Source of the DNA: Dictyobacter formicarum
Lineage (GTDB): Bacteria > Chloroflexota > Ktedonobacteria > Ktedonobacterales > Ktedonobacteraceae
Direction of reading: 5' to 3'
DNA: 64,000 nt
NCBI RefSeq assembly: GCF_016587435.1
Contig: NZ_BNJJ01000028.1
Span: forward strand, 1 to 64,000
Every line of letters begins with the position of its first letter. Position 1 is the stretch's first letter. The translations under genes were made by a program, and so were the position numbers. Under the pieces are notes generated by a model. The model was not told the DNA's origin. It saw nothing but the letters and a program-made list of their open reading frames with translations, and searched no databases. Shown here one piece after another: positions 1,012-48,045 of this stretch.

Positions 1012-1163
1012 GTAGGTGCGCCCCTTGCGGGCGCTTAACTACTTCACGCTCAAAAAACCGCTCCTAAAATGCGATTGCGAGCGGTTCGAATCGATATATA
1101 ATGTTATCATTGTTTGTTTTTCAAGCGCGAAGGGTAAAAAGCGCCCGCAAGGGGCGCACCTAC
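1012..1163. repeat. Inverted pair of REP-like repeats (GCGCCC stem type)
   Basis: A plus-oriented copy at 1012-1036 (GTAGGT, stem GCGCCC, loop CTTGC, stem GGGCGC, TT) faces a minus-oriented copy at 1139-1163 with the same stem, about 100 bases apart. The sequence beyond the right copy (GGGTTTC...TTTCTTGTT) recurs next to other copies of this family in the window. The pair fills the gap between the glycosidase and the next gene; no coding sequence is evident between the arms. Confidence 0.8.
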
Positions 1164-1276
1164 GGGTTTCATCTTTCTTGTTACTTTATCTTATCATCTT
1201 CGCCTAAATCTCATCGCACAGAACTTCTGCTATGATATACTCATTTCATTACACATCTTTTACAGGAGCTTATTTT

Positions 1277-2455
1277 ATGTCAACTGACCAGGGAAGGTCG
1301 CTTTCAATTATCAAAATGCGGGTTGAAGAACTACTGACGGAGGTCTGGGGTAACGAGGTGCAACTTGCTCCGAATGCCGCTGATCTTAAGGCCAGTGGTC
1401 GCACCCAGGTTTATCGCTTCTCGTTCCTTGAAAAGCCGGTTGATGCCCCGCAGCACGTTATTGTCAAAGCCATGCCTATGATGGAAGGCATATCCGAAGC
1501 CTCCAACACAGCTCCAGAAAATTCTTTTCAGCTCTTCTTCAATGATTGGGCTGGATTACAGTTTTTAAGTGAGATCACACCTCATACAGCTCTGGCGCCG
1601 CGCTTCTATGCTGGAAACAAAGCGCATGGACTGATCGTCATGGAGGATCTGGGAACAGGAAACGGGCTGCACCAGCTGCTGCTCGCGGATAACCCTGAGG
1701 CGGCAGAAGAGGCAGCCGTACAGTATACAGCTACCGTGGGTAAGATGCATGCCGTCACGATTGGTAAGCAAGAGGCTTTCTACCACATTCGTCAGGAGCT
1801 TGGGCCAGTAGATATCCCCGACTATGCCTGGATTTCGTCAGCATTGTGGGAGACCATTCATACACTGAATGTCGTACCAGCTGCTGGCATCAAGGATGAA
1901 TTGAAACAGCTTACTTCCATCATGGAAAATCCAGGGCCATTCTCAGCGTATACGCATGGCGATCCCTGTCCCGATAACATCCTTATTGGCACATCCGGAA
2001 AGTTGTTGGACTTTGAATTCGGAGCGTATCGTCACGCACTCATCGAAGGTGTCTATGCTCGCATGCCATTCCCTACCTGCTGGTGCGTCAGTCGGCTTCC
2101 TGCTCACATCATTCATCGTATGGAGACAAGTTATCGTATGGAACTGGCAAAGGGCTGCCCCGCAGCACATGATGACAGGCTATTTACGCAGGCCGTTGCT
2201 GCTGCCTGCGCCTACTGGACAATCGATGATTGTCGCTTTCTGCATCGTCATCTGGAGCAAGATTGGCAGTGGTCGCCAGGCCTTGCAACAGCTCGGCAGC
2301 GTTTCCTGCTGCGCTTCAATGTGGCAAGAGAAGCCATTGAAGCCAGCGAGTACTTGCAAGCTATTGGTGAGACATTTGAGCGGATTGCGAGCAGATTGCG
2401 TCAGCTCTTGCCTCTCGAAGCAGATCAGATGCCTTATTATCCAGCATTCCGCTAG
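1277..2455 (+). CDS. APH/choline-kinase-type phosphotransferase
   Basis: A 392-residue protein of the aminoglycoside phosphotransferase (APH/choline kinase) fold. The catalytic loop THGDPCPDNIL lies near residue 225 and the metal-binding LLDFEFGAYRHAL about 20 residues later, so the histidine, catalytic Asp, Asn and second Asp are all kept. An N-terminal lobe with VIVKAMP and VMEDLG (hinge) precedes it. Such proteins transfer the gamma-phosphate of ATP to a small hydroxylated substrate; the substrate is not predictable. The ATG at 1277 is preferred over an in-frame upstream ATG at 1232 because AGGAG at 1264-1268 sits 8 bases before it. Monocistronic; the neighbours do not suggest a pathway. 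Two other APH-type genes occur in the window (18858 and 37138). Confidence 0.8.
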   Translation: MSTDQGRSLSIIKMRVEELLTEVWGNEVQLAPNAADLKASGRTQVYRFSFLEKPVDAPQHVIVKAMPMMEGISEASNTAPENSFQLFFNDWAGLQFLSEITPHTALAPRFYAGNKAHGLIVMEDLGTGNGLHQLLLADNPEAAEEAAVQYTATVGKMHAVTIGKQEAFYHIRQELGPVDIPDYAWISSALWETIHTLNVVPAAGIKDELKQLTSIMENPGPFSAYTHGDPCPDNILIGTSGKLLDFEFGAYRHALIEGVYARMPFPTCWCVSRLPAHIIHRMETSYRMELAKGCPAAHDDRLFTQAVAAACAYWTIDDCRFLHRHLEQDWQWSPGLATARQRFLLRFNVAREAIEASEYLQAIGETFERIASRLRQLLPLEADQMPYYPAFR

Positions 2456-2666
2456 CAATGATCATTGACAGACAAGTAGGCTTTTGGGGGTGTGGCCTAC
2501 CTCAATCATCTTCGACCAGGTTAAAAGCATTGGGCACATTACCCGACGCAATCGGGCCCAGAGCAACGTTGACGGCAGGCTGCCATCCTGGAAAAAGCTC
2601 AGAAAACCGCTGTAGTTAGTGCTAACGCGACGTAGCTCAACAGATCACAAATTTTCTCGCATAAAA

Positions 2667-3491
2667 TCAAGCAATAATGGAGACGGCGCTGAAGAAAGGC
2701 AGCGCAAGGGCTGTGTTGCCCTGGGTGCTGGCCCGGGCAAGGGCCTGTTCTCTGGTGAGTCCTTTGGTGAGCAGGCACCAGGTCGTTTGTTGATCAATAG
2801 TGATGATGGCGGCAGGCTCAAAGGCTGTGTCCGTGAAAAGGGACCAGGCGGAATGATTGCGCATCAGGAACCAACTGCGTCCAGCCTCGCCGGTTATGCT
2901 TAGCTGGATGACCGTGTGCTCAGGCGCTTCGATGGCGCGAAACGTGTAGGGCAACGCCCGCATAAAAGTGTCCAGGACCGGCGTGAGAAAGGCTGCTTCG
3001 GTCAGCCCTGGTTGCTGAAGTGCTTCCCGAATGTGCTGCTGATGGTGCCAGCGCTCAGTGTACTCGCGGGCCACATCGAGCCAGATAGGAGCTGGTTCAG
3101 GACCCGCCCAGCTAACCGGACCTCCCATTTCCATCAGCGGACGGCTTTTGAAGTACTTCACAACCTCGTGTCCGGTACTATCCAATAACTCGCAGAGCAA
3201 CGGAGTACTAATGCGGCGCGTAGCTTCCACCCAGAGGGCATTATGTTCGTTAATGCGGCTAACAAGGTCAGGGCCAGGCTTCAGGCTATATGAAGTATCT
3301 TTATCGCGACCTCTGGAGAGCTGGCCCATCTCATCACCCAACAAGTGCAGAGCAATATCCTTGACGCTCCAGCCCTCACAAGGCGTAGGGCGTTGCCACT
3401 CAACTGCCGAGAGCTGGCGCAGCAACAACAAAAGGCGATCAAGCAATGGCTCAAACAGGTCCACCACAATAATTGGTTCAACTGGCTGCAT
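2667..3491 (-). CDS. DinB/maleylpyruvate isomerase N-terminal (MDMPI_N)-type protein
   Basis: A 274-residue soluble protein. The N-terminus WQRPTPCEGWSVKDIALHLLGDE matches the start of the mycothiol-dependent maleylpyruvate isomerase N-terminal/TIGR03083 group (four-helix DinB-like metal-binding bundle), where the pattern P-x-W-s-v-k-D-h-x-H-L carries the first metal-binding His. A second His-rich helix, YTERWHHQQHIREAL, follows near residue 145, as expected for the DinB triad. Family members bind a divalent metal and often use mycothiol, bacillithiol or similar thiols, but most are uncharacterised. AAGGA lies upstream of the ATG. It stands alone, convergent with the kinase gene at 1277. Confidence 0.75.
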   Translation of the reverse strand: MQPVEPIIVVDLFEPLLDRLLLLLRQLSAVEWQRPTPCEGWSVKDIALHLLGDEMGQLSRGRDKDTSYSLKPGPDLVSRINEHNALWVEATRRISTPLLCELLDSTGHEVVKYFKSRPLMEMGGPVSWAGPEPAPIWLDVAREYTERWHHQQHIREALQQPGLTEAAFLTPVLDTFMRALPYTFRAIEAPEHTVIQLSITGEAGRSWFLMRNHSAWSLFTDTAFEPAAIITIDQQTTWCLLTKGLTREQALARASTQGNTALALPFFSAVSIIA

Positions 3492-3653
3492 AACACTTTC
3501 CTTCCCGGATACACAAAAAATAATTGATACAGATCACGCTCAATCACATTATGCATAGAAAGGCAGATACAAATCAAATACATATTTAAGCCGCGTTGAT
3601 GTTTTACGCCAACACGCCCTTGAATCGCCCCCGTTTTTATGTGTCGGTGGGAA

Positions 3654-3988
3654 AATCGGACGCAAGGTTCGGACCTTGGCATGTGTGCGTTGGTGGTTTT
3701 ACGGTTCCATCATCACATGGCGCCGAACGAAACATCGGCCATCGAAACGCATCAAGAAAAGGGATATCCATAGGTTCGGCCCTTGCGTCCGATTTCATCA
3801 TCCACGCACGTAACGTCACCTATCGAATGTTTCGAGACGAAAAGCCAGGGCCGAACCTATGGATCGCTTTTATTGTTGCTTTTACGTATTGAAACAGAAA
3901 ATCGGACGCAAGGTCCGAACCTATGATTCACCTTTATTGTTGCTTTTGCGTGTTGGAACGGAAAATCGGGGGCGAGCCCCGAACCTAT
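3654..3988. repeat. Cluster of five REP-like repeats
   Basis: Copies: 3654-3677 (minus, mutated), 3770-3794 (plus, stem TCGGCC against GTCCGA, one mismatch), about 3847-3860 (minus, only the right half), 3900-3924 (minus, stem TCGGAC/GTCCGA) and 3964-3988 (minus, stem TCGGGG with loop CTCGC). Between them recurs TTTATTGTTGCTTTT, the outer arm seen beside other copies. The 3492-3993 interval between two minus-strand genes holds no supportable coding sequence; open frames here run through the repeats. Confidence 0.75.
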
Positions 3989-3993
3989 TTTTG

Positions 3994-4846: not shown

Positions 4847-4923
4847 CCTTATCATATGAGGAGAAAACAAACGATTATAACTGCGGCGGTAGCATAGTGT
4901 TCAAACAGTCCCATTGAAGGGAT

Positions 4924-6716: not shown

Positions 6717-8876
6717 ATGAATGCTTCTGTACGGTTTTGCGATAATTGCGGGACGACGAATCGGCCCGATGCAAAGTTCTGCTATGCGTGTGGTCAGCCA
6801 CAGATTTCGTATGCGACTACTAATACAGTTACGGGCCTGCTGACTTCTGCTTATGAATTAAAACAGCGCTACCATATTCTACAAAAGCTGGGGCAGGGCG
6901 GATTCGGGGCGATCTATAAAGCGGCTGATCTGCTCTTTAATGATACTCCCCGGGCGGTGAAGGAGATGGGTATGCGGGGTCTGGATGAGCAGGAGACAAA
7001 AGATGCCATCGTGGCTTTTCGCAATGAGGCGACGTTGCTGGCCAATCTCTCTCATCCCAATCTGCCGCGCATCTATGATCATTTTGAAGAGCATGGTCGC
7101 TGGTACCTGGTGATGGATTATATCGAGGGCGAGACGTTGGAGAAGCGGCTGGAGCAAGCTCCGGGCGGCTATCTGCCACTCAAAGAGGTGGTGGAACTGG
7201 GTATACAGCTGTGTACGGTGTTGAGCTATCTGCATAGCCATGAGCCGCCGATCATCTTTCGCGATCTGAAGCCGGATAATGTGATGCTGACGGCGGATGG
7301 GCAGGTCTATTTGATCGATTTCGGTATCGCGCGCTTTTTTAAACCTGGACAGACCAAGGATACGATGAATCTAGGTACGCCGGGCTATGCAGCTCCTGAA
7401 CAATATGGACGTATGCAGACCACGATTCGATCAGATATCTATAGTCTGGGCGCCACACTCTACCAATTGATCTCCGGTATTCATCCAGGTCTGACACCAT
7501 TTCTGCAGCAGCCGCTCGATCTGGATGCGTCGCAGCCTGCCAATGTGGCCCTGGAGAAGTTGGTGATGCAGATGCTGGAGTTGAAAGAGGATCAGCGGCC
7601 CCGCGATGCCCAGGTAGTCAAGCAAGAGCTACAGAACGTGCAGCAGATGTTGCAGAGCGCCAGCGTCAAGCGTATCGTTCAACCCATTGCAACAGCCATC
7701 CCGGCGAGCACGACGACCGCGCTCAGCCAGGCTACCAGGCTGCTAGCAACGCAAGAACCTCGGCCGAGTATTGTGGTAGCTCAACAGGGCGGCGACTATA
7801 CCTCGCTGAGTGAAGCAATACAGCAAGCCGAGCCGGGCAGCTTTATCTTTGTACGCGAAGGGCTCTATAAAGAAAATATCATCCTCGATAAGCCGGTCGA
7901 GATTATTGGCAATGGACCACGCGCTCAAATTATACTTGAAAGCAGCAACACCGACTGTATCGTTATGCAAACTGCAGCCGCTACCCTGCGCGGCCTGACT
8001 ATCCGCTGTCTAGCCGGCTCAATGGGCAAAGCAGCCTATGCGCTGCATATTAGTCAGGGCGAGCTCTTCATCGAAGATTGCGACATCACATCCTCCTCAT
8101 CTGCCTGCATCTCCATCACCAGCGTCAACGCCAATCCCACTATTCGCTACTGCACTATCCATGATGGAGCGGGATATGGCATCACCATCTCGCAAAATGC
8201 GCGGGCCACCATCGAATACTGTGAGATCTTCAATCATCCCCGCGCCGGGATACATATCACGACCGGGGCCGATCCAATCCTGCGCCACTGCAATATCTCT
8301 AACAGCGAGCGCTACGGCCTGTTTATCATTGAGCAGGGGCGCGGCACCTTTGAGGACTGTGATATTCATCATCATGGCTATGCGGGCGCCACGGTCAGTA
8401 CGCTGAGCAATCCACTGTTGCTGCGCTGTCAGCTACACGACAACTTGAAATACGGCGTCGAGGTCCTGCAAGAGGGGCAGGGCTCCTACCAGGACTGCGA
8501 GATCGCGGGCAGTGGCGTCGATAATGTGTCGATCACAACTGGCAGCACGCCCTACTTCTACCTCTGCCGCATCCACGAGGCGCAACAGCACGGCGTCAAG
8601 GTCAGTGACAATGGTCGCGGCATCCTGGAATACTGTAATATCTCTGCCTGCCAGCAAGCAAACGTCGCTATCAGCAGCGGAGGCGACCCACAGCTCCAGC
8701 GCGACACGATCAGCCACAGTCAGCAGTATGGCGTCGCTGTCTTCGACGGTGGGCACGGCACGATCGAGCACTGTATCTTGACCGATAACGCCCGGGGCGC
8801 GCTCTCCATTGAGCGGGGCTGCGAGGTCGTCAACAAACAAAATACCCTGCACTCAATGGCAAACAGGCATCCGTAG
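6717..8876 (+). CDS. Zinc-ribbon Ser/Thr protein kinase fused to a right-handed beta-helix
   Basis: A 719-residue soluble protein with three parts. Residues 8-25 form a zinc ribbon (CDNC and CYAC). Residues about 50-310 are a Hanks-type kinase: glycine loop GQGGFGAIYKA, VKEM lysine near 81, catalytic RDLKPDNVML near 182, DFGIARFF at about 201, and GYAAPEQYG in the activation segment; all catalytic residues are present. From about 350 to the end lie repeats of about 22 residues such as PTIRYCTIHDGAGYGITI and PILRHCNISNSERYGLFI, the pattern of pectate-lyase/NosD-like parallel beta-helices. No membrane segment links them, so the helix is probably cytoplasmic and may be a scaffold or binding surface. 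Bacterial kinases usually carry PASTA, WD40 or TPR sensors instead. No ribosome-binding site is visible before the ATG. The TAG stop is part of a REP repeat. Confidence 0.85.
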   Translation: MNASVRFCDNCGTTNRPDAKFCYACGQPQISYATTNTVTGLLTSAYELKQRYHILQKLGQGGFGAIYKAADLLFNDTPRAVKEMGMRGLDEQETKDAIVAFRNEATLLANLSHPNLPRIYDHFEEHGRWYLVMDYIEGETLEKRLEQAPGGYLPLKEVVELGIQLCTVLSYLHSHEPPIIFRDLKPDNVMLTADGQVYLIDFGIARFFKPGQTKDTMNLGTPGYAAPEQYGRMQTTIRSDIYSLGATLYQLISGIHPGLTPFLQQPLDLDASQPANVALEKLVMQMLELKEDQRPRDAQVVKQELQNVQQMLQSASVKRIVQPIATAIPASTTTALSQATRLLATQEPRPSIVVAQQGGDYTSLSEAIQQAEPGSFIFVREGLYKENIILDKPVEIIGNGPRAQIILESSNTDCIVMQTAAATLRGLTIRCLAGSMGKAAYALHISQGELFIEDCDITSSSSACISITSVNANPTIRYCTIHDGAGYGITISQNARATIEYCEIFNHPRAGIHITTGADPILRHCNISNSERYGLFIIEQGRGTFEDCDIHHHGYAGATVSTLSNPLLLRCQLHDNLKYGVEVLQEGQGSYQDCEIAGSGVDNVSITTGSTPYFYLCRIHEAQQHGVKVSDNGRGILEYCNISACQQANVAISSGGDPQLQRDTISHSQQYGVAVFDGGHGTIEHCILTDNARGALSIERGCEVVNKQNTLHSMANRHP

Positions 8877-8897
8877 GTTCGAGGCTTGCCCTCAATT
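8873..8897 (+). repeat. REP-like repeat overlapping the kinase stop codon
   Basis: GTAGGT, stem TCGAGG, loop CTTGC, stem CCTCAA (one mismatch at the base), TT. The TAG of the conserved TAGGT is the stop codon of the kinase gene. Confidence 0.75.
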
Positions 8898-8971: not shown

Positions 8972-9164
8972 ATAGGTTCGGGGCTTGCCCCCGATTGTCG
9001 CCCGCCGCAGCGTGGCGACCCGGTTCCCGCACCGCTCGGTACCTATTACATCGACACCTTGGTCCACGCGGTGCCCAATTGGAACCTTCCCCTCCAAACG
9101 ATATCGCATTAAAATCGACGTCATCGTGGGGGGAGGGGAAATCGGGGGCAAGCCCCGAACCTAT
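8972..9164. repeat. REPIN-like element, about 195 bp
   Basis: Plus-oriented REP at 8972-8996 and minus-oriented REP at 9140-9164, both with stem TCGGGG/CCCCGA. The interior includes CACCGCTCGGTACC and CCACGCGGTGCCCAA, segments that recur in the elements at 16240, 36701 and 45453. No open frame of interest is inside. Confidence 0.75.
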
Positions 9165-15208: not shown

Positions 15209-16156
15209 ATGGAAAACAACAAAGACCTGATCAGCAACAAGTCCCAAGAGATCCAAATCTGTTCAAGCGTCTGGAGCAGCCGCGAGATAGTGGTTCCGGC
15301 TGGAGCAGCCGAGCTAGAGCTGGACGAGGAGGAAGACATAGACCATGAGCAAGCGGCCGCACGAGCGGCGGAGGTAGAATATAATCTGCGAGCCCATTTG
15401 AGCATCATTCACCCAGGTTCGGTGGCGCCAAAAGGATTGGTCAACTATCCAGTGGACGAGCAGTCAGAAGGTTGCCCGCAGTGCCATGGGCGGCGCTATT
15501 TCCGCCTTGATGTACCCTTTGAGCATCCCCTGTTTGGCAAGGCGGTCCCGTGCAACTGCCTGCGCGAGCACCAGCAAAAGTTGCAGCGCCAGTATCTGCG
15601 CCAGATCTCCAACCTGGACACGCTGGAAGAGTTTCGCACCAAAAGCCTGCATACCTTCGACGGCTTTATTCCTGGCTCGCGCATCGCTTTCCAGCAAGCC
15701 ACCGACTATGCCAATCAGCCCGAGGGATGGTTGATCTTCATTGGCCGCAACGGCTGCGGCAAAACACACCTGGCCGTTTCCATCGCCCGCTATCGTCTGG
15801 AGGCCGGAGACAGCGTCCTCTTCATGGTTGTCCCCGATTTGCTGGACTACCTGCGCGCCACCTACGCCCCCACTGCGAAGGTACGCTATGACAAGGTCTT
15901 CCAGCAGATGCGTGAGACGCGGCTGCTGGTGCTTGACGATCTAGGCACAGAGCAAAATTCACCCTGGGCCAGCGAAAAGCTCTTCCAGTTGCTCAACTAT
16001 CGCTACAACGCCCATCTGCCCACGGTGATCACCACCAACCTGATCGGACTTGAGGGCATCGAGCCGCGTATCCGCTCGCGCATGAGCGATAAGCGCCTGG
16101 TCCGCATCATCTCGATGGATAACGTTCCTGACTATCGTCAGCAGCCAACCAAATAG
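15209..16156 (+). CDS. DnaC/DnaI-like AAA+ ATPase (helicase loader)
   Basis: A 315-residue protein. Residues 1-60 are acidic; a zinc-binding part follows with CPQCHGRRYF and PCNC near 90-115, as in DnaI/DnaC-type loaders. The AAA+ core has Walker A GRNGCGKTHLA near 179, Walker B LLVLDDLGTEQ near 245, sensor-1 TVITTNL near 272 and an Arg-finger-like RIRSRMSDKR. Such proteins place the replicative helicase on DNA, or act as IstB-type helpers for transposases; no IS21-type transposase is adjacent, and the upstream DnaD-like partner favours the replication role. AAGGAG precedes the ATG. The TAG stop is the first part of a REP repeat. Confidence 0.8.
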   Translation: MENNKDLISNKSQEIQICSSVWSSREIVVPAGAAELELDEEEDIDHEQAAARAAEVEYNLRAHLSIIHPGSVAPKGLVNYPVDEQSEGCPQCHGRRYFRLDVPFEHPLFGKAVPCNCLREHQQKLQRQYLRQISNLDTLEEFRTKSLHTFDGFIPGSRIAFQQATDYANQPEGWLIFIGRNGCGKTHLAVSIARYRLEAGDSVLFMVVPDLLDYLRATYAPTAKVRYDKVFQQMRETRLLVLDDLGTEQNSPWASEKLFQLLNYRYNAHLPTVITTNLIGLEGIEPRIRSRMSDKRLVRIISMDNVPDYRQQPTK

Positions 16157-16177
16157 GTGCGCCCCTTGCGGGCGCTT
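16153..16177 (+). repeat. REP-like repeat overlapping the loader gene stop codon
   Basis: ATAGGT, stem GCGCCC, loop CTTGC, stem GGGCGC, TT: a perfect copy. Its TAG serves as the stop codon of the AAA+ gene. Confidence 0.8.
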
Positions 16178-16239: not shown

Positions 16240-16466
16240 ATAGGTTCGAGGCTTGCCCTCGATTTGCCCCACCGTTTGTGGGGCCCTGTGTCCTCGCCGC
16301 TCGGTATCTCGTGGCTCATACCTCGGCCCACGCGGTGCCCAAAAGGAAGGTCCGCTTTTGGGCACCGCGTGGGCCGAGGTAATGGGAAAAAGCGGAGCCT
16401 GGTCATACGGACACAGGGCTGCCACGCTGCGGCGGGCGGCAAGCGGGCGCTGAGGCCCGCACCTAC
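16240..16466. repeat. REPIN-like element, about 227 bp, with two different ends
   Basis: Left REP at 16240-16264 (stem TCGAGG/CCTCGA); right end at 16441-16466 in minus orientation (GCGGGC...GCCCGC then ACCTAC) with a different loop. The interior has GCCCACGCGGTGCCCAAAAG facing an inverted copy (TTTTGGGCACCGCGTGGGC) and GCCGCTCGGTATCTCGTG, shared with the other elements. The rest of the 16467-16685 gap up to the J-domain gene shows no gene. Confidence 0.7.
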
Positions 16467-25966: not shown

Positions 25967-26033
25967 AAGCGCCCACGAGGAGCGTACCTACGCGTGGAGC
26001 GAGGTTTGAAGCGCCCGCAAGGGGCGCATCTAC
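25967..26033 (-). repeat. Two tandem REP-like repeats
   Basis: A mutated copy at 25967-25991 and a good copy at 26009-26033 (AA, GCGCCC, GCAAG, GGGCGC, then ATCTAC), 42 bases apart, both in minus orientation. They fill the gap between two convergent genes. Confidence 0.7.
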
Positions 26034-26054: not shown

Positions 26055-27656
26055 TTAATACAGGCGCACGCCGTTCGCTTCATACCAATCGTATTGGGTG
26101 GTCTGGCCATCGAGCTGCCAGCTGGCGGGACAGGTGGTGTCGAGCCAGTCAAGCGGCTCGGCCGGGATACGCTCCTGGGCAGCCAGCGTAAAAGCCTGGA
26201 TCAGTGCTTCGCGCTGCGCGGGGCCCACAGCATCGGGAGCAGCCGACACAAACAGTGGTGTACCGCTACGGGCCAGCAGGTCGAGCCAGCGCTGGTTCAG
26301 TTCCCAGGGAATTTGATTGGTCAGCCCCACACAGTCGGCGTCAGCGGCAAAGAAGGTGTTGTGCTGCGGCATCCGAAAGGCGAGCGTATTGATGCCCATG
26401 AAGCGCGTACGCTCCCATTCACGACCGCTGGTGTCATCTCCCGTCCGTTGCAGCTCAAAGAGGCCAGCAGATAGATGTCCAATCGTGTTGCAGCCAATTA
26501 TCACGGAATCGGCGGACGCTTCAGCGATAGCGCGATAGAACGAGAGGATAATTTCGGCGCTGGTACGGCTGCGATCAGCGAAGTGCCAGCCGGGCTCAGT
26601 AAGCTGCGCTCCCATCTGGAAGCCCCAGCGACCAAAGAGATCGTAGGTGCTGAAATCATGTTTGATCAGCTCAAATCCCCAATCATGCAGGCAACAAATA
26701 TCTTCCTGCACATGTTCAAGCACTGCTGGCTGGCTGGGGTCCAGCACCAGCCCAACATTATTCTGAGAGCGATGCTCCACCTTCAGAATCCATTCCGCAG
26801 GCACTTTTTCCAGGGTAAGCAAGGGACGCATCCAGATGCCGGGACGAACGCCCATCTCACGCATCTCCCCGGCTAAGCGCCCCATGTCGGGAAAGAGATA
26901 GTTGCCCTGCCGCCAGGGTCCACCGTTATAACTTGAGAGGGAACAGAGCTGCCAGCCATCGTCGATAACCATATAGGGCCGGTTTTCCTGGTTGGGTGCC
27001 AGCTCGGCCAGCAACTTTGTATCCGCGAGGATCTCTCGATGCGAGCTGTTGCCATAGGCATAATACCAGTTGTTGCTACCATACACCGGCTGCTTCGGCA
27101 GCACCGGCCGCTCACAAAGCTGTGAGCAGAAAGCCCGGGCAGCCTGGAAGGCGCTTTCTCCAGAACGTCCCTCACGGCTCACGATCTCAGCTACCGGCAA
27201 CACGCGCTCGCCCAGTTCGACACCAGCGCCGCCATTGCGCACATCCAGCCACAGCGTCACCCCACTGGCATCAACCTGCCAGAAGCAAATGGCCCGTGCC
27301 CCCGTCTTCACGCCATAGCCATGAGTCTCCTGACCATTAAAGGTCAAAAAATACCAGGGCAACAGCCGCTCAGGTACCAGGCCGCGCCACTCCAGATCTC
27401 CATAGCCACGATCCCAATGATCGCCTAGAAAGCGCAGCCGCGACGAAACGGGCTGACGCCAGCGCAGCGCCACCCGCAACACCGCCATCCCCGGAGCCGA
27501 CAGGCTAATCGCCTGCTGCCCCTCCCGAAACTCCGTAAGGACCTCAATGCCCTGCTGCTGCCAGCGTTCCTCACCATGCTGCAGCAGCGACACCCAACTA
27601 TCCTCCAATTGCACCGTCACCGCATCTGGCACCCTTCTCACATCTAAATAATCCAT
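26055..27656 (-). CDS. GH36-like glycosidase (alpha-galactosidase-type)
   Basis: A 533-residue soluble enzyme. An N-terminal beta-rich domain (to about 190) is followed by a TIM barrel with MVIDDGWQLC near 240, IKHDFSTYDLFGRWG near 330 (K-x-D carrying the probable nucleophile Asp) and RTGDDTSGREWERTR near 410 (probable acid/base Asp). DDGW and KxD are hallmarks of clan GH-D (GH27/GH31/GH36), which release terminal alpha-galactosides or related sugars. The size is shorter than typical GH36 (about 720), so the exact family is uncertain. The ATG at 27656 has AAAGGA 9 bases upstream; the frame remains open to 27875 only across a REP repeat. Confidence 0.75.
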   Translation of the reverse strand: MDYLDVRRVPDAVTVQLEDSWVSLLQHGEERWQQQGIEVLTEFREGQQAISLSAPGMAVLRVALRWRQPVSSRLRFLGDHWDRGYGDLEWRGLVPERLLPWYFLTFNGQETHGYGVKTGARAICFWQVDASGVTLWLDVRNGGAGVELGERVLPVAEIVSREGRSGESAFQAARAFCSQLCERPVLPKQPVYGSNNWYYAYGNSSHREILADTKLLAELAPNQENRPYMVIDDGWQLCSLSSYNGGPWRQGNYLFPDMGRLAGEMREMGVRPGIWMRPLLTLEKVPAEWILKVEHRSQNNVGLVLDPSQPAVLEHVQEDICCLHDWGFELIKHDFSTYDLFGRWGFQMGAQLTEPGWHFADRSRTSAEIILSFYRAIAEASADSVIIGCNTIGHLSAGLFELQRTGDDTSGREWERTRFMGINTLAFRMPQHNTFFAADADCVGLTNQIPWELNQRWLDLLARSGTPLFVSAAPDAVGPAQREALIQAFTLAAQERIPAEPLDWLDTTCPASWQLDGQTTQYDWYEANGVRLY

Positions 27657-27763
27657 ACTCCAACATCCTTTGCTACAAATTTCGATTGCATAAACATACA
27701 CGCTCGATTGCCGCTCACCAAACATTATATGCACATGCATCACATTTTTGATAAGGAACCTCC

Positions 27764-27788
27764 ATAGGTTCGGGCCTTGCGCCCGATT
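27764..27788 (+). repeat. REP-like repeat (TCGGGC stem)
   Basis: ATAGGT, stem TCGGGC, loop CTTGC, stem GCCCGA, TT. It sits in the 335-base gap between the divergent glycosidase and epoxide hydrolase genes. The rest of this gap is AT-rich upstream sequence without a gene. Confidence 0.8.
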
Positions 27789-27991
27789 TGCCACTCTGCG
27801 CACGAAAACATTTTTAATCATGCATGATGTCCGAAAGAGAGTATAATCCATTGAAATATAAAAATGCTTGATCAATAAGTTTCCCTGTTAAACTTATACG
27901 TTTGGATGATATGATATTTGCTGGACAGGCTTATTTTGTGGCATGATGGGAAAGGAAGTATCAATAGCAGAGCGTAAAGTCGAGGAAATGT

Positions 27992-31133: not shown

Positions 31134-32402
31134 CTAGGTAACGATAGGGGCCTCGGTAGGATAGCGTTCGTAGAGGCGCTCGACCACAATGTGTTTGAGC
31201 CGCTGGACCGTCTGGTGGATGTCGCGATAGGTGGTGTAGAGCGGGGTGATGCCCAGGCGGATGTTGTCGGGCGCCCGGAAATCAGGTAGGACATGCATGT
31301 CATTGATCAGAGCCAGATCGATACGCAGTCCTTCGGCGTGCCCCAGAGAGATATGCGAGCCCCGGTAAGCCTGCTCACGTGGGGACTTCAGCGTGAAGCC
31401 GAGCGGCTCCAGCTCTGCCTCCCAGAGATCGATCAGATAGCTGCTCTGGCGCAGGGATTTGGCGCGCAGCTGCTCAATACCTGCCTCACGCAGCAGGTCT
31501 ACGCCCGGCTCGATCAGGGAGAGCGAGACCACCGGCGGAGTCCCGGTCAGGAAGCGGCGCAGGCCCGGCGCGGGCTGATACTTCAGGTCAAAGCCAAACA
31601 GGTTCTGCTGCCCCATCCAGCCCGTAAGGGGATTAATGAGCCGCTCCTGCAGGTCGCGCCGAATATACAGAAACGCCGGCGCCCCTGGTCCACCATTCAG
31701 ATATTTATAGGTGCAGCCGATGGCCAGATCCACGTTGGCGGCATTCAGGTCCACGGGCACCGCGCCCACCGAATGGCTGAGATCCCACAACACCAGCGCG
31801 CCAGCATCATGGGCAGCCGAAGTCAGGGCGGCCATATCATACATATAACCACTCTTAAAGACGGTATGCGACAGCGTGAGCAACGCCGTCTGCTCATCCA
31901 GGCGCGCCCGCAGGTCCGCTACTGGACCATCGATACCATCAACCGAGGGAACCACCTGCAGCTGGTGCTGCTTATCCAGCATATCAATCGCGCCTTGCAG
32001 GATATAGAGGTCTGAGGGAAAGTTCAGATCATCGGTCACGATCTGCGAGCGGCCCACCTGGAAGCGTAGCGCCGCCACCACCAGCTTAAACAGGTTGACC
32101 GAAGTTGAATCAGCCACAATCACCTCGTCCGCCTGCGCCCCGATCAGGCTGGCGATCTTAGCCCCGATACGCTCAGGGGCCGTAAACCAACCTTCATTCC
32201 AGCTCCGAATCAGCCGACTCCCCCACTGCTGCCGCACCAGGTCAGCAGACTGATCCACCGTCGCATACGGAAGGCGACCCAGCGAGTTCCCATCCATATA
32301 AATCAGATCATCATCTTCGATCAAAAAACGCTCACGAAAATGCGCACAAGTATCCTGCGCATCCAGCTCCTCAGCATAGGCAAGATCATTTGAAACCGTC
32401 AT
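31134..32402 (-). CDS. kynU: Kynureninase
   Basis: A 422-residue PLP enzyme of fold type I that cleaves kynurenine (or 3-hydroxykynurenine) to anthranilate (3-hydroxyanthranilate) and alanine. Recognisable features: IYMDGNSLGRLP near 34, DSTSVNLFKL near 98, HTVFKSGYMYDM, LWDLSHSVGAVPVDL near 205 and the Schiff-base lysine K233 in TYKYLNGGPGAP. Length matches the family. AAGGGAT lies upstream of the ATG. It follows kynA in the same direction with a 122-base gap containing REP repeats, which may act as a processing or attenuation signal within the operon. No kynurenine formamidase gene is seen in the window, nor kynureninase-dependent NAD genes. Confidence 0.95.
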   Translation of the reverse strand: MTVSNDLAYAEELDAQDTCAHFRERFLIEDDDLIYMDGNSLGRLPYATVDQSADLVRQQWGSRLIRSWNEGWFTAPERIGAKIASLIGAQADEVIVADSTSVNLFKLVVAALRFQVGRSQIVTDDLNFPSDLYILQGAIDMLDKQHQLQVVPSVDGIDGPVADLRARLDEQTALLTLSHTVFKSGYMYDMAALTSAAHDAGALVLWDLSHSVGAVPVDLNAANVDLAIGCTYKYLNGGPGAPAFLYIRRDLQERLINPLTGWMGQQNLFGFDLKYQPAPGLRRFLTGTPPVVSLSLIEPGVDLLREAGIEQLRAKSLRQSSYLIDLWEAELEPLGFTLKSPREQAYRGSHISLGHAEGLRIDLALINDMHVLPDFRAPDNIRLGITPLYTTYRDIHQTVQRLKHIVVERLYERYPTEAPIVT

Positions 32403-32438: not shown

Positions 32439-32504
32439 GTAGGTTCGGCCCTCGCGGCCGATTGCGCCTCGCCGCACGATAACACACGGCCCTTGCGGCC
32501 GATT
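32439..32504 (+). repeat. REP-like repeat and half copy between kynA and kynU
   Basis: A full copy at 32439-32463 (GTAGGT, stem TCGGCC, loop CTCGC, stem GGCCGA) and a second stem-loop at 32485-32504 (CGGCC, CTTGC, GGCCG) that lacks the TAGGT. Both share a stem sequence different from other copies in the window. They lie within the presumed operon. Confidence 0.75.
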
Positions 32505-33441: not shown

Positions 33442-33621
33442 AAGCGCCCGCAAGGGGCACTACATTTCATTCAGGAGCAGGGCATATAAGCAAAAGCAAC
33501 AAGAAAAGAGAAAAACCCGTAGGTGCTGGCGAGGATGTCCCCGACATCCTCGCCAGCACCTACGGGTTTCATGTTTCTTCTTGCATAAATGAAATGTATT
33601 GCCCACAAGGGGCGCATCTAC
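33442..33621. repeat. Nested REP-like inverted repeats around a perfect 27-bp hairpin
   Basis: Outer copies: 33442-33463 (minus, shortened) and 33599-33621 (minus, mutated), each next to a stretch TACATTTCATT or its complement ATGAAATGTA. At the centre, 33513-33539 is the perfect reverse complement of 33543-33569, with only CCC between; it begins with CCGTAGGTGC and so looks like two REPs fused head to head. Outside it, CAACAAGAAAAG faces TTTCTTCTTG. The whole 33409-33642 stretch is therefore a large imperfect cruciform, with no gene. Confidence 0.75.
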
Positions 33622-33642
33622 GGCGGCGGTATGGCAACGAAT

Positions 33643-36673: not shown

Positions 36674-36950
36674 AACGCAACAAGAAAAGCGGAAAACCTC
36701 ATAGGTTCGGAGCTTGCCTCCGATTTGCCCCACCGTTTGTGGGGGCCCTGTATCCTCGCCGCTTGGTCCCTCGTGACATCACACCTTCCTCCACGCGGTG
36801 CCCAAAAGCGACCTTCACTTTTGGGCACCGCGTGGAGGAAGGTGGTGGGCAAGAAAGGAGTTCCGTCATAGGGATCCGGGGCCCCACAAACGGTGGGGCA
36901 AATCGGAGGCAAGCTCCGAACCTATGAGGTTTTCCGCTTTTCTTGTTCGT
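36674..36950. repeat. REPIN-like element with about 75-bp inverted ends
   Basis: The left arm begins CAACAAGAAAAGCGGAAAAC, runs through a REP at 36701-36725 (stem TCGGAG/CTCCGA) and GCCCCACCGTTTGTGGGG; the right arm is its inverted copy with the REP at 36901-36925 and GTTTTCCGCTTTTCTTGTT. The interior contains CCACGCGGTGCCCAAAAG next to its own inverted copy CTTTTGGGCACCGCGTGG. This is the best preserved element of the family. The gap 36560-37137 has nothing else apart from the relic at 37039. Confidence 0.8.
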
Positions 36951-44711: not shown

Positions 44712-44723
44712 TCGTCCCCATAC

Positions 44724-44764
44724 AATCTACACCCGGCGCGTTGCGTACGCGCCGGGTGTAGATT
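44724..44764 (+). terminator. Perfect 18-bp hairpin after nadE
   Basis: AATCTACACCCGGCGCGT (44724-44741), loop TGCGT, perfect complement 44747-44764, 12 bases beyond the nadE stop. No T run follows. Confidence 0.65.
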
Positions 44765-44962
44765 CGATGCACATATACATATATAGAAATGGCATCACGT
44801 TTCACACCACCATGCAAGCCATCAAAGGCATCGCCAGCTTGCTACAACCAGCTTAACCCGAGCAGGCATATCAAGGCCTTTTATTCTGTGCTGAAATAGG
44901 CTACTATCATACATAACATCCCACAAAAAGCGAACAGAACAACAGAGATGGAGATATATCGT

Positions 44963-45424
44963 ATGACTAACGAATCCGAGGCCGTCCGCAAGCAGATTAA
45001 CAAACTAATGGCCCAGACCTTCGCGCTCGTCGAGGCCTGTCCCCGTGGCCGCGTGACAACGTACGGCTGGATCAGCAAGGCCCTGGGCTATCCACGCAGC
45101 GCCCGCATGATCGGCTGGTTTATGCATGAGGCCAGCGAACCAACGCCAGCACAGCGCGTAATCAACAGCAAAGGCGAGCTCAGTGGAAGCCGCGCCTTTG
45201 GACAGATCGGCCGCATGCGCCAGCTTCTGGAAGCCGAAGGCGTCACGTTCCTCGAAGATGGACGCGTAGACCTCAAACGCTACGGCTGGGACCCCTCGCG
45301 CGACCTGAGCGAAGAAGAGCGTCAGCAAATCCTGGAGGAAGCGACCGCGCACCCGGTAGAATCCAATGCCCGCACACTCAACATAGTGCTCACCGATCCA
45401 GCCTCGCCCTTCAAGAGCGAATAG
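44963..45424 (+). CDS. Alkyltransferase-like DNA-binding protein (MGMT family)
   Basis: A 153-residue protein with the winged-helix DNA-binding domain of O6-alkylguanine-DNA alkyltransferases: EACPRGRVTTYGWISKALGY and PRSARMIGWFMHEA. The active-site motif PCHRV is replaced by PAQRVINSKGEL, so the acceptor Cys is absent: an alkyltransferase-like (ATL) protein, a class that binds alkylated bases and passes them to nucleotide excision repair. A C-terminal extension of about 50 residues (KRYGWDPSRDLSEEERQ) follows, common in this group. GGAGA is 9 bases before the ATG at 44963; an ATG at 44948 would add five residues. Confidence 0.85.
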   Translation: MTNESEAVRKQINKLMAQTFALVEACPRGRVTTYGWISKALGYPRSARMIGWFMHEASEPTPAQRVINSKGELSGSRAFGQIGRMRQLLEAEGVTFLEDGRVDLKRYGWDPSRDLSEEERQQILEEATAHPVESNARTLNIVLTDPASPFKSE

Positions 45425-45452
45425 CTTCCAAACGGCGAACCGCAACAATACC

Positions 45453-45630
45453 GTGGGTGCGGCCTTCAACAGCCGCTTGTCGCCCGCACACGTGGCGACC
45501 TGGTGGCCGCGCCGCTCGGTTCCTCACTTGTCTGACACCTTGCCACACGCGTTACCCAAAAGAAACGTGAAAGAAACGTGCGCTGTAGCGCACGTTTTGC
45601 TTCAAAGGTTTCGTATTTCTTGTCGCATTC
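45453..45630. repeat. Decayed REPIN-like element
   Basis: CGTGGGTGCGGCC...GCCGC (45453-45478) resembles a worn REP; inside are GTGGCGACCTGG, CGCCGCTCGGTTCCTC and CCACACGCGTTACCCAAAAG, counterparts of the core of the elements at 8972, 16240 and 36674; TTTCTTGTCGCATTC marks the right side. An internal hairpin AACGTGCGC...GCGCACGTT (about 45573-45596) is intact. The remaining gap to 45877 is AT-rich with no gene. Confidence 0.55.
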
Positions 45631-45877
45631 TCTCGCTTGATGTTTGTAAAATGCATTGAGCACGAAAGACGCACACGCTTTTTGTATCTATTGCTGTATT
45701 ATCTAAAAATGAGGCTTTAAAAAGCTTGTTATCGTATTCAATAATAGATACAATTATATTTATGATTCTCTCTTCTTCGAGTTTACAAGATAACTGGGTT
45801 TTTTATAAAGTCACGCACCACTATGCATTTCGGAATTTGATCGAGTCAGCAATAAAGCAAGGATGTGAAATCAGTAT

Positions 45878-46789
45878 ATGAATCATTTTAGTAACACGGC
45901 CTTTACTCCAGAAGATCCGCAGATAACCACACAGAGCCAGATGCCAATCACAGTGCTATTAATTATGTATGGATTTATAATCGTTATAATGTGTTCCTCA
46001 GTGATAGGGTTTATAATAACGGCTTCTCCAAATCTAGCTAGCATCTTTGTAAATCGCACCTTCTTTAGAGATACGTTTCTATGTCTAATATTCTTATTAA
46101 ACTTCATCGCACTTCTACGTAACTCGTATTTGCCGTCACGTTACTGGAGCAGGTTGCAAAAAAAACGACAGCTAGCATTTTGGCAGCCAGAGCGCTATCT
46201 GGCCCTGCATCAACCTGTCGCATCGTTTGAGCTGCCGCAGCCCACCCGAGTTGCGGTCAATATACACATGAGTGTTTTTTTTCTAATCCTTTTACCGTAT
46301 TGCTTCATTTCAATGGCATTATTCTGCATATTATATATCGAATTGTCCTTATTCTATACTTTATTGATCAGCATTGGAGTCGCTCTGCTATTAAGTATAT
46401 TTCTACTCACTGTGACATATGTGCGGCGGAACAAGCCTAAATGGCCCTATGTGGAAGTGCATGAGGACGGCATCGCCGCCGCGCTGGATAAGATCGGGGA
46501 GCCATTACCATGGCAAGATATCTGCTTCTTCGCTACCTACAAGGGACCGCCCACACCATTCGCGATTGGTACCAACAAATATGCCCGCTATTATGAACTG
46601 GCCAGTCACCAGAGGATCATACGCTGGCGACACCACCCCAGGCTCTCGCCCTGGATGGCAACCCGGCCTGTACTAGACCAGGCCGCTTATAATCGCTGGC
46701 AGCAACAGTTGCTCGGCTATATCAAAGAACGCACCAGCCTGCCTCTGGTCGACCTGGACAGCGTACCGATGCCATCCGAAGAAAAATAA
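45878..46789 (+). CDS. Uncharacterised multi-pass membrane protein
   Basis: A 303-residue protein with four probable membrane helices: two near residues 24-50 and 65-85 (LLIMYGFIIVIMCSSVIGFI, LCLIFLLNFIALL) and two near 128-180 (FFLILLPYCFISMALFCILY, LLISIGVALLLSIFLLTVTY). A cytoplasmic C-terminal domain (WPYVEVHEDGIAAALDKIGE, LPWQDICFFATYKG, GTNKYARYYELASHQRIIRW) looks like the PH-like fold often paired with such helices. The 5' half is clearly richer in A+T than the neighbouring genes. Function unknown. No obvious ribosome site precedes the ATG. Confidence 0.6.
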   Translation: MNHFSNTAFTPEDPQITTQSQMPITVLLIMYGFIIVIMCSSVIGFIITASPNLASIFVNRTFFRDTFLCLIFLLNFIALLRNSYLPSRYWSRLQKKRQLAFWQPERYLALHQPVASFELPQPTRVAVNIHMSVFFLILLPYCFISMALFCILYIELSLFYTLLISIGVALLLSIFLLTVTYVRRNKPKWPYVEVHEDGIAAALDKIGEPLPWQDICFFATYKGPPTPFAIGTNKYARYYELASHQRIIRWRHHPRLSPWMATRPVLDQAAYNRWQQQLLGYIKERTSLPLVDLDSVPMPSEEK

Positions 46790-46885
46790 GAGCACTATGT
46801 ATGTCCACGTATGGATGGGAACTGGTTCATGTTTCGGAGGCGTGTGTGTTTATAGGTTATGTAATAAATGAAAGTGAGCTTATAT

Positions 46886-47749
46886 ATGGATAAGCAACAC
46901 ACAGACGGGAACGATACCATTGTGTCCTATCCGACGCCATATGCGGATGTCAATGCGGTGCTGCACGATTTTGCGGCTAGTTTGCAGGCGCTCTTAGGGA
47001 GTCACTTCAGGGGCATGTATCTGTATGGGTCGCTGGCCCTTGGTGATTTTGATCCGCACAGTAGCGACATTGATTTTATCGTCGTGACCGATGCCGAGCT
47101 TGCGGATGATCTCTTTAAGGGGCTTCAGGATCTGCACGAGCGCTTTGATCACAGTGGCTCACCGTGGGCGGGAAAGATAGAGGCGGCCTATATTCCACAG
47201 GATGCCCTGCAGCACACCACTGCAACCACTGCCTGCTATCCCCAGGTCGAGAAGGAGAGGCCGCTCTTCAAAGGTCCCCTCGAAATTGGCTGGAGTTTTC
47301 AACGTCATACCCTGCGCGAGCATGGAGTGAGAGTAGTGGGACCCAATCCACACCAGCTTTTTGCCCCCGTTGATCAAAGCGATCTATGGCAGGCGGCGGA
47401 TGCCATCGCGCGAAAGGAGTGGCTAGAGCGGGTAGATGATCCCGACTGGTTAGGCTGGGCGCGACAAAGGGGAAGCCAGTCCTTTGTCGTTTTGATGCTC
47501 TGTCGCTTTCTGTACACACTCGACACGGGTGGAGTAGCCTCTAAGCTTGTGGCTGCACGCTGGGTCCAACGGGCGCTGGGAAAACGCTGGTCCGTGCTGA
47601 TCGAGTGCGCCCTGGCAGGGCAACATGAGAGCGGCGAAGCGCCTGATAGCGACATGCAAGACACCATAGCCTTGATCAGATATACGGTCGATCAAATAGA
47701 GCACCATCATAGGTTCGGGGCTTGCCCCCGATTGTCAAGCCCATCATAG
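46886..47749 (+). CDS. Aminoglycoside adenylyltransferase-like nucleotidyltransferase, C-terminus encoded by REP repeats
   Basis: A 287-residue protein of the AadA type: nucleotidyltransferase motif LYGSLALGDFDPHSSDIDFIVV near residue 40-60 (G-S, D-x-D), followed by a helical C-terminal domain (DUF4111-like; GWARQRGSQSFVVLMLCRFL, YTLDTGGVASKLVAARW). Such enzymes adenylate aminoglycosides such as streptomycin or spectinomycin, or unknown substrates. The last 14 residues (RFGACPRLSSPS and the residues just before) are read through a REP copy at 47709, and the stop codon is the TAG of the next copy, so the gene's native end has been replaced. The start is either ATG 46886 or 46868, neither with a clear ribosome site. 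Confidence 0.75.
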   Translation: MDKQHTDGNDTIVSYPTPYADVNAVLHDFAASLQALLGSHFRGMYLYGSLALGDFDPHSSDIDFIVVTDAELADDLFKGLQDLHERFDHSGSPWAGKIEAAYIPQDALQHTTATTACYPQVEKERPLFKGPLEIGWSFQRHTLREHGVRVVGPNPHQLFAPVDQSDLWQAADAIARKEWLERVDDPDWLGWARQRGSQSFVVLMLCRFLYTLDTGGVASKLVAARWVQRALGKRWSVLIECALAGQHESGEAPDSDMQDTIALIRYTVDQIEHHHRFGACPRLSSPS

Positions 47750-47807
47750 GTTCGGGGCCTGCCCCCGATTGCCAAGCCCATCATAGGTTCGGGGCTTGCC
47801 CCCGATT
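47709..47807 (+). repeat. Three tandem REP-like repeats with 37-bp period
   Basis: Copies at 47709-47733, 47746-47770 and 47783-47807, all with stem TCGGGG/CCCCGA, separated by 12-base spacers nearly identical in sequence (GTCAAGCCCATC). The middle copy has loop CCTGC. They form the left side of a larger element that ends with an inverted REP at 48021. Confidence 0.85.
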
Positions 47808-48045
47808 GTCGCCCTCCGCAGGAGCGGCGACACGGTGCCCGGCCGGTTCGGCTCCATCACCGTCGTCCCCTCGACCAGAGAGAGGTCCCCGCGATGCCTT
47901 GGGGAGCACCCGCAGGACGTCGCCGCGAGGTGCGTTCGGAGGAACTCGTGCCCGGTGGCCGGATCATCCAACCCCAGCAAAGCGCCCGGATACGGGGCCG
48001 CTACTCTTGCGGAGGGCGGCAATCGGAGGCAAGCTCCGAACCTAT
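47709..48045. repeat. Long REPIN-like element
   Basis: Bounded by the tandem plus-oriented REPs (47709-47807) and a minus-oriented REP at 48021-48045 (stem TCGGAG/CTCCGA, i.e. not the same stem as the left side). The interior of about 210 bases begins GTCGCCCTCCGCAGGAGCGG and ends GCGGAGGGCGGC, forming a second inverted pair, but the centre differs from the other elements. No gene inside. Confidence 0.7.

Follow-up and report, generated by a model that had tools for sequence, protein, structure and literature searches.

A probable GTAG-type REP hairpin family, with many copies in head-to-head doublets, in the genus Dictyobacter

The window, a 64-kb stretch of DNA from the soil bacterium Dictyobacter formicarum analysed as a whole, carries 20 copies of a short dispersed hairpin between positions 1012 and 48045. 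Their layout is [A/G]TAGGT followed by a 6-bp stem, the loop CTTGC, the complementary stem and TT. Copies were accepted with a tag [AG]TAG[GA]T, a loop C[TC][TC]GC or CTCAGC and at least five of the six stem pairs. The tag is ATAGGT in 14 copies, GTAGGT in five and GTAGAT in one; the loop is CTTGC in 16, CTCGC in two, and CCTGC and CTCAGC in one each. Stems are perfect in 18 copies, those at 3770 and 8873 having one mismatch each. The pattern TAGGTN6CTTGC occurs 15 times in the window against 0.10 expected, a number reached by none of 100 shuffles. The first-pass annotation had reported at least 20 such hairpins and listed seven stem types, and both the copies and every one of these types were found. 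All 14 perfect 6-bp stems around CTTGC in the window are preceded by the tag and none is untagged. Tagged perfect hairpins with any loop number 20 in the window, 18 of them family members. None has a reversed loop, which had been considered as a mark of whole-hairpin inversion. An Rfam scan of the window gave no match at gathering score.

Twelve of the 20 copies form six head-to-head doublets (a + copy followed by a - copy) that span 152-263 bp. In the first doublet (1012-1163) a GTAGGT GCGCCC CTTGC GGGCGC copy (1012..1034, +) faces the copy at 1141..1163 (-). The second (3770-3924) joins the mismatched ATAGGT TCGGCC CTTGC GTCCGA (3770..3792, +) to a TCGGAC/GTCCGA copy (3902..3924, -). Doublet 8972-9164 is made of a TCGGGG/CCCCGA copy (8972..8994, +) and its partner at 9142..9164 (-), and doublet 36701-36925 of a TCGGAG/CTCCGA copy (36701..36723, +) and the one at 36903..36925 (-). 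Doublet 16240-16466 is mixed: its left half has the stem TCGAGG/CCTCGA (16240..16262, +) and its right half, GTAGGT GCGGGC CTCAGC GCCCGC (16443..16466, -), belongs to a type with a six-base loop that is frequent in D. kobayashii. The last one (47783-48045) pairs TCGGGG/CCCCGA (47783..47805, +) with TCGGAG/CTCCGA (48023..48045, -). The pairing of these 12 copies went unremarked in the first-pass annotation.

The other copies include TCGGGG CTCGC CCCCGA at 3966..3988 (-) and a GTAGAT-tagged hairpin with the stem GCGCCC/GGGCGC at 26011..26033 (-). A TCGGGG/CCCCGA copy at 47709..47731 (+) is the first in a direct array of three with a 37-bp period. Three copies provide the TAG stop codon of an ORF: the mismatched GTAGGT TCGAGG CTTGC CCTCAA at 8873..8895 (+) for ORF 6717-8876, the GCGCCC/GGGCGC copy at 16153..16175 (+) for ORF 15209-16156, whose D. 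vulcani orthologue lacks the repeat, and the copy with loop CCTGC at 47746..47768 (+) for ORF 46868-47749. With 21 of the 106 listed ORFs compared, 19 of the 20 copies lie outside ORFs or at their 3' end. The exception, TCGGGC/GCCCGA at 27764..27786 (+), is found within ORF 26055-27875, near its upstream end. The copy GTAGGT TCGGCC CTCGC GGCCGA at 32439..32461 (+) separates kynureninase and tryptophan dioxygenase genes; the corresponding site has a decayed copy in D. aurantiacus, and none was seen there in D. kobayashii and D. vulcani. No precise junction of repeat insertion was established. Degenerate additional copies have stems that start at 32486 and 33460, with a further one at 33601-33623. 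Between them, positions 33515..33567 (no strand assigned) hold a palindrome with 25-bp perfect arms, a 3-base centre and the tag CCGTAGGT at both arm ends, which is a form related to the REP hairpin or derived from it.

The pattern, counted with no pairing required, occurs 248 times in D. aurantiacus, 59 in D. vulcani and 25 in D. kobayashii, against two, two and one matches, respectively, of the reversed-pattern control. The other 26 of the 29 family genomes have 0-3 matches each. Ktedonobacter was rejected as a host of the family: its three genomes give one, one and two matches against one, one and zero for the controls. The repeat is thus genome-wide in relatives, which excludes its confinement to the window, the outcome that the first-pass annotation, in proposing a scan of related genomes, had named as contrary to its claim. 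Like REPs, the hairpins have a high copy number (248 strict copies in D. aurantiacus) and lie mostly between genes, as judged from the 20 window copies. Sister types have their own distribution. The CTCAGC loop is amplified, among the 29 genomes, only in D. kobayashii (61 copies), and GTACGT hairpins are commonest in the same species (104 copies), with 14 in D. aurantiacus. In viral contigs the exact-core pattern had no match and an amidase query found no relative.

Pairing was assessed in 100 of the 248 D. aurantiacus copies, chosen regardless of pairing: 575 of 600 stem cells are paired, against 354 (sd 9) in letter shuffles. When tag and loop were the sole criteria of choice, 118 of 150 copies from the three Dictyobacter genomes had a perfect stem, and 851 of the 900 cells were paired. 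Addition of 19 window copies, which had been pre-chosen with at least five pairs, brings the count to 963 of 1014 cells against 557 when shuffled, with 19 distinct perfect stems. Members of the family thus carry alternative complementary residues in the stem, as REPs do. The stems covary strongly, as measured against letter shuffles in copies that are paralogues with a common history. The first-pass annotation had concluded that the hairpin, and not its sequence, is maintained; that this reflects selection for pairing is not proved, because template switching at quasi-palindromes, which copies one arm onto the other, also yields paired changes. The 169 stems fall into few amplified types (GCCGGG 29, GCGCCC 22, TCGGCC 22, GCTGGG 16), so that a small number of events may account for many of the paired differences. 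Template switching without selection is nevertheless a rather improbable source of the covariation, as 34 of the 169 stems carry mismatches and it gives no account of the invariant tag and loop, the spread, the doublets or the linkage to genes of REP-associated tyrosine transposases (RAYTs). It could operate in addition to the main explanation.

Pairing might also be kept in transcripts, where the hairpins would be terminators or mRNA stabilisers. Only one of the 20 window copies lies inside a compared ORF other than at its 3' end; this and the three stop codons would suit such an RNA-level element, and according to Di Nocera 2013 (PMC3733652) REPs elsewhere were proposed to participate in termination and mRNA stabilisation. 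However, at least six T in the eight bases past the stem are present in only one of the 20 window copies, and this T content does not support intrinsic terminators. The 169 copies have 16 G.T mismatches and 19 A.C ones, thus no excess of G.T, although an RNA constraint acting on the tagged strand would be expected to favour G.U, and the tag, the fixed loop and the RAYT linkage are left unexplained. An RNA-level element is consequently unlikely as the main explanation; a side role of the hairpins in RNA could accompany the main reading as REPs.

Doublets are frequent in the sister families too. Among the 100 listed of the 104 GTAC copies, 21 doublets are head-to-head and two tail-to-tail, 16 of the 21 having a spacing of 119-126 bp. 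The CTCAGC family has 19 head-to-head doublets and no tail-to-tail one, 17 of the 19 having a spacing of 188-201 bp. With tail-to-tail counts as comparator, these are over-represented inverted doublets of mostly constant spacing, as in REPINs or BIMEs. In the same 100 listed GTAC copies, perfect stems are found in 32 of 42 doublet copies versus 19 of 33 singlets, a difference that is not significant (p 0.13). Longer doublets, of about 190-225 bp, have a conserved inner sequence and A-rich sequence outside the tags. In one doublet class a second hairpin, by eye, lies immediately inside the first. Loops keep their orientation in the fetched loci (CTTGC 62 versus GCAAG 0; CTCAGC 37 versus GCTGAG 0), counts that carry little weight because most loci were chosen by their loop.

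Matches to RAYT model NF047646 are present in all three Dictyobacter genomes and correspond to eight proteins. NF047646 is the best family for all eight, one of which passes its 80-bit cut-off. Seven have an intact HUH motif (HIY in L098), and a D. halimunensis relative is named REP-associated tyrosine transposase by NCBI. RAYTs with GTAG, ATAG and GTAC hairpins share 45-70% identity with the D. aurantiacus protein L096. Relatives of L096 at 60-70% identity that carry a species name are all from Dictyobacter, the next proteins being at 46-50%; these identities suggest that the Dictyobacter RAYTs form their own cluster.

Tagged perfect hairpins were found near nine of 19 RAYT-like loci, including six of the eight from Dictyobacter, and not near the other ten. 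About 110 bp past the stop codon of the L096 gene, on one side of it, lies a window-type doublet GTAGGT TCGGGC CTTGC GCCCGA; the first-pass annotation had suggested a search for a Y1 transposase flanked by the repeat. All three D. kobayashii RAYTs are adjoined by sister hairpin types: CTCAGC and GTACGT hairpins each adjoin one, and TTTAAC hairpins, two copies never amplified, are found at one. Hairpins on both sides of the RAYT occur only at L112 of D. vulcani and at L101 of genome G012. L112, the only RAYT detected in D. vulcani, lies between GTAGCG/TTCAC hairpins, another type whose two copies in that genome are both at the RAYT, and the 59 CTTGC copies of D. vulcani are not linked to it. 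In D. aurantiacus the vicinity of two of the four RAYTs (L098 and L113) contains no tagged perfect hairpin, and none of the 14 GTACGT copies of this species is beside a RAYT. D. vulcani and these two hairpin-less genes speak against a one-RAYT-one-REP rule. When three Dictyobacter RAYTs served as tblastn queries, no RAYT was detected in the window itself (best E 0.62). It is very improbable that the repeats are MITEs mobilised by an IS200-type or DDE transposase of the ordinary kind: the longer doublets are MITE-like, but tag, stem and loop have the layout of REPs, and none of the 15 IS200-type Y1 loci fetched (from 25 non-RAYT matches in the same three genomes) has a tagged perfect hairpin, while RAYT loci have them.

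When the first tag base is left free, it is G in 29 of 32 D. aurantiacus and nine of nine D. vulcani copies, A in 14 and G in five of 19 window copies, and A in 29 and G in 17 of 46 D. kobayashii copies, GTAC copies included. A GTAG tag or a near variant therefore precedes the palindrome, as in REPs. GTAG is the rule in D. aurantiacus and D. vulcani and the window has mainly the ATAG variant; most window copies (14 of 20) differ in this from the GTAG start named in the first-pass annotation. RAYTs beside ATAG and GTAC hairpins differ at the positions matching R104 and Q95 of the E. coli enzyme, residues that contact the tag. This parallel between tag drift and RAYT changes is suggestive only. 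It is a tentative idea that the tag was recoded naturally, to ATAG in one RAYT lineage that lost R104 and to GTAC in another with Q95 changed to K, each with its own amplified family. If so, the GTAC family should cut at GT or GA and not at CT, like engineered Marinomonas GTAC substrates. In 77% of 44 GTAC copies GA lies 18 bases past the stem, but in a stretch of A-rich sequence that is itself conserved, and the 48 GTAG copies showed no CT at a fixed position; this fixed-dinucleotide search is not diagnostic of the cutting site and decides nothing. A strict residue-tag code was rejected outside Dictyobacter: L101 has a GTAG tag yet C at position 104, and L111, which has a single GTAG hairpin, seems by eye to carry Q there.

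The repeats, observed directly as covarying tagged hairpins spread in Dictyobacter, in doublets and adjoining RAYTs, very probably constitute a GTAG-type REP family with many copies as head-to-head doublets (REPINs). The proposal of a REP-like family in a Chloroflexota genome is thus upheld by the copies in relatives, the covariation and the RAYT-adjoining hairpins. T. roseum is a member of the Chloroflexi. Its GTAG-23 family was described by Di Nocera 2013 (PMC3733652), and the GTAG families of that study share with the Dictyobacter hairpins the tag, compensatory stem variants, head-to-head dimers, RAYTs and phylum. Of the notable parallel announced in the first-pass annotation, the REP family in a Chloroflexota stands; its novelty is reduced by the earlier report of GTAG repeats in Chloroflexi (PMC3733652), in a main text that does not name Dictyobacter or Ktedonobacter. 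The hairpins look like a new family of a known kind, set beside GTAG-23 by its description. Judged by titles and beginnings of abstracts, none of the listed papers that join Ktedonobacter or Dictyobacter with REPs, RAYTs, palindromes or repeats is on the family.

CTTGC-loop REPs are known in Pseudomonas, such as Pflu1 of P. fluorescens SBW25 (GTGGGAGGGGGCTTGCCCCCGAT) and Pent2 of P. entomophila (GTAGGAGCCAGCTTGCTGGCGAA), from Nunvar 2010 (PMC2817692). As described there, they resemble the Dictyobacter repeats in having a tag (GTAG/GTGG), a short stem around CTTGC and a short tail on the 3' side, in their linkage to RAYTs and, in pseudomonads, in forming inverted doublets. Dictyobacter differs by its phylum, ATAG in most window copies, the GTAC sister family, the unpaired GT after the tag, the TT tail and, in several families, conserved A-rich sequence outside the tag. 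For REPINs the proposed unit of spread is likewise a pair of inverted copies separated by a spacer (Bertels and Rainey 2011, PMC3116915); the doublets of Dictyobacter come in two main sizes, the distance from one hairpin start to the other being about 124 or 195 bp. Group 3 TnpA-REP/REP systems of Stenotrophomonas and Marinomonas (PMC8266576) share the perfect short stem and loop-dependent recognition, Marinomonas REP also the two bases between tag and stem, and the enzymes D at position 100, present in seven of eight Dictyobacter RAYTs, which, by identity to L096 relatives, cluster separately.

By analogy with published TnpA-REP work, a repeat copy in single-stranded DNA would fold into a hairpin, and the RAYT, an HUH/Y1 nuclease, would bind the folded strand through the 5' single-stranded tag, intact stem and fixed loop, cut nearby and then move or copy the unit, usually as a doublet. 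With constraint only on folding, tag and loop, the stem sequence would drift with its pairing kept. In published assays of the group 3 enzyme from Stenotrophomonas, cutting is weakened or almost lost when the middle of the stem has a mismatch, replacement of stem bases by their complements has a smaller effect and a reversed loop impairs cutting severely (PMC8266576); the Dictyobacter stem and loop pattern is, by analogy, that of these assays.

The value of the finding is moderate, such systems being already known, this phylum included. It adds a genus of Ktedonobacteria to the range of the well-described REP/RAYT system; several families, distinguished by loop and tag, coexist in that genus. 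How the tag is read and how it chooses the cutting site were addressed with three REP/RAYT pairs (PMC8266576), and the natural GTAG, ATAG and GTAC families with their related RAYTs provide a test set for both questions.

The window has 15 matches to the strict pattern TAGGTN6CTTGC, where shuffles give 0.10. A wider definition of this family of repetitive extragenic palindromes (REPs) yields 20 copies between 1012 and 48045, which agrees with the first-pass annotation, where at least 20 were counted. All six pairs are intact in 18 of the 20, and ATAGGT is the majority tag (14/20). Across the whole window, perfect 6-bp stems centred on CTTGC carry the tag in 14 cases and lack it in none. When any loop is accepted the window has 20 tagged perfect hairpins, 18 of which belong to the family and none of which has the reversed loop. 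ARAGORN detected no tRNA and the Rfam scan gave no match in the window. Three ORFs (6717-8876, 15209-16156 and 46868-47749) end at the TAG of a REP tag, which is their stop codon (at 8874, 16154 and 47747, respectively). A 53-bp palindrome at 33515-33567, which has 25-bp perfect arms, a 3-base centre and the CCGTAGGT tag of the arms at both ends, is flanked by two degenerate REP copies (33444-33460 and 33601-33623).

Dictyobacter is a member of the Ktedonobacteria, in the Chloroflexota. A scan of related genomes, proposed in the first-pass annotation, located the strict pattern in three Dictyobacter genomes out of 29 of the family: pairing not being required, D. aurantiacus has 248 occurrences, D. 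vulcani 59 and D. kobayashii 25, with 0-3 matches in each of the remaining 26 genomes and 0-2 for reversed-pattern controls.

Stem pairing was assessed in 150 of these copies chosen by tag and loop only (100/248 from D. aurantiacus, 25/25 from D. kobayashii, 25/59 from D. vulcani). The stem is perfect in 118 of them and 851 of 900 cells are paired; D. aurantiacus alone has 575/600 paired cells versus 354 (sd 9) with letters redealt. Addition of 19 window copies, which had been chosen with at least 5 pairs, gives 963/1014 versus 557 (sd 12) in shuffles, and the 55 distinct forms give 280/330 versus 167 (sd 8). A further test used 42 of the 55 forms: every one of the six pairs has changed on both sides, and sliding the arms abolishes the signal. 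Of its five measures, the count of pairs altered on both sides (six) was reached in 163 of 500 shuffles and the remaining four in 0/500. The 42-form test leans towards pairing. The copies are paralogues from a few amplified stem types, so many of the paired differences may go back to few independent changes. Among mismatches G.T (16) is not in excess over A.C (19), so there is no sign of RNA constraint.

Window neighbours at most 350 bp apart are head-to-head in 6 cases, in the same direction in 5 and tail-to-tail in 0. The corresponding D. kobayashii numbers are 21, 15 and 2 for the GTAC family (100/104 copies) and 19, 5 and 0 for the CTCAGC family (61/61 copies). Spacing in the head-to-head doublets is mostly constant: starts are 119-126 bp apart in 16/21 GTAC doublets, and the spacing is 188-201 bp in 17/19 CTCAGC doublets. 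Direct arrays are found at 47709-47805 of the window and at loci L144 and L180. Outside the tag, copies from D. kobayashii and D. vulcani share an A-rich stretch resembling CAACAAGAAAAGCGAT, which is weaker in the window. By eye, the D. kobayashii CTCAGC doublets L115-L130 seem to have on their inner side a second hairpin, for example GCCGCCCCGGTAGGGCGGC, directly after the REP hairpin, also variable in its stem. In one GTAC doublet (L162, D. kobayashii) the spacer has become a short run of tandemly repeated units similar to GCTTGCCCCC. At L133 (near 386) and L123 (near 372), REP 5' halves break off in the loop or immediately ahead of it and are fused directly to another tag; the L133 junction reads ATAGGTTCGGCCCT then GTAGGT. 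These truncated halves might be strand-transfer products.

The NF047646 search for REP-associated tyrosine transposases (RAYTs) gave eight RAYT-like proteins, four in D. aurantiacus, three in D. kobayashii and one in D. vulcani, and the curated score is passed by one of the eight. Weaker NF047646 matches in the three genomes look IS200-type. Tagged perfect hairpins lie near 9/19 RAYT-like loci versus 0/15 IS200-type Y1 loci (one-sided chance 0.0018). In D. aurantiacus, the RAYT locus L096 has a GTAGGT/CTTGC doublet, the type of the window, 3' of the gene; L097 has a GTAGGC/CTCGC hairpin ~700 bp off and, closer in, two copies with loop CTCGC, one tagged ATAGGT (5/6 pairs) and the other, decayed, tagged ATATGT. 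The D. kobayashii RAYTs are accompanied by four ATAGGT/CTCAGC copies (L099), four GTACGT/CTTGC copies (L100) and a GTAGGT/TTTAAC doublet (L114), and the D. vulcani gene (L112) by GTAGCG/TTCAC on both sides. The scan of the two other D. aurantiacus RAYT loci, L098 and L113, found no tagged perfect hairpin. A tyrosine replaces the second histidine of the HUH motif in L098 (HIY); its D. formicarum relative P0006 retains HLH. Hairpins with a GCAAG loop, the complement of CTTGC, are present near RAYT-like genes in other family genomes (L105, L111).

Over the 29 genomes, the CTCAGC type numbers 61 in D. kobayashii and 0-1 in the others, while for the GTACGT type D. kobayashii has 104 copies, D. aurantiacus 14 and the rest 0-1. 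The TTTAAC type (D. kobayashii) and the GTAGCG/TTCAC type (D. vulcani) have two copies each, both at the RAYT, and 0-1 in other genomes. Judged by these counts (61 and 104 versus 2 and 2), two of the four RAYT-linked types were amplified and two were not. No RAYT matching the 59 CTTGC copies of D. vulcani was detected in that genome.

TnpA-REP 4er8 is the only PDB relative by sequence (E 0.0008), and the E. coli numbering (I93 W94 Q95 ... R104) was taken via this structure. Q95, D100 and R104 are described as the residues contacting the tag that show relative conservation within group 3 (PMC8266576). Position 95 is Q and position 104 is R in the proteins of GTAG-tagged L096, L114 and L112, and likewise in those of L098 and L113, which have no tagged hairpin. 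In ATAG-tagged L097 and L099, Q at 95 is combined with N or M at 104, and in GTAC-tagged L100 the two positions are K and R. In our reading of the alignment, the relatives P0003 (D. formicarum) and P0005 have N and K at 104. The ATAG case represents one event because L097, L099, P0003 and P0005 share a single clade (support 100/98), and the GTAC case comes from a single protein, L100. The rule linking residue and tag fails at least once outside Dictyobacter, at L101, where a GTAG tag is associated with C at 104. In Marinomonas, a GTAG to GTAC change is reported to give cleavage at GA and at GT, but not at CA (PMC8266576); since those GTAC substrates are cut at GA and GT, L100 would by analogy be predicted to cut at GT or GA.

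Best-segment identity of the window's kynureninase (31134-32402) falls from 92% in D. aurantiacus through 86% in D. kobayashii and 80% in D. vulcani to 73-74% in three Ktedonobacter, which places the window in Dictyobacter. A D. halimunensis relative of a window protein reaches 90%, among the 120 listed of 7,715. Compared by eye, the copy at 32439 corresponds to a decayed one in D. aurantiacus, and no counterpart was seen in D. kobayashii or D. vulcani. The copy at 16153 provides the stop codon of its gene; D. vulcani lacks this copy. No exact insertion junction was found at these two sites. The comparison of these sites shows turnover of hairpin copies.

GTAG repeats are already reported for Chloroflexi and for T. 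roseum (PMC3733652), a survey of RAYT enzymes lumps Chloroflexi with other phyla (PMC6006769), and CTTGC-centred REPs are known in Pseudomonas (PMC2817692). No publication on REPs in Dictyobacter or Ktedonobacter was found among the open-licence PubMed Central papers listed. The enzyme is already named in D. halimunensis, as NCBI labels one of its proteins REP-associated tyrosine transposase. The Dictyobacter hairpins are filed here as a further family within the known REP/RAYT kind.
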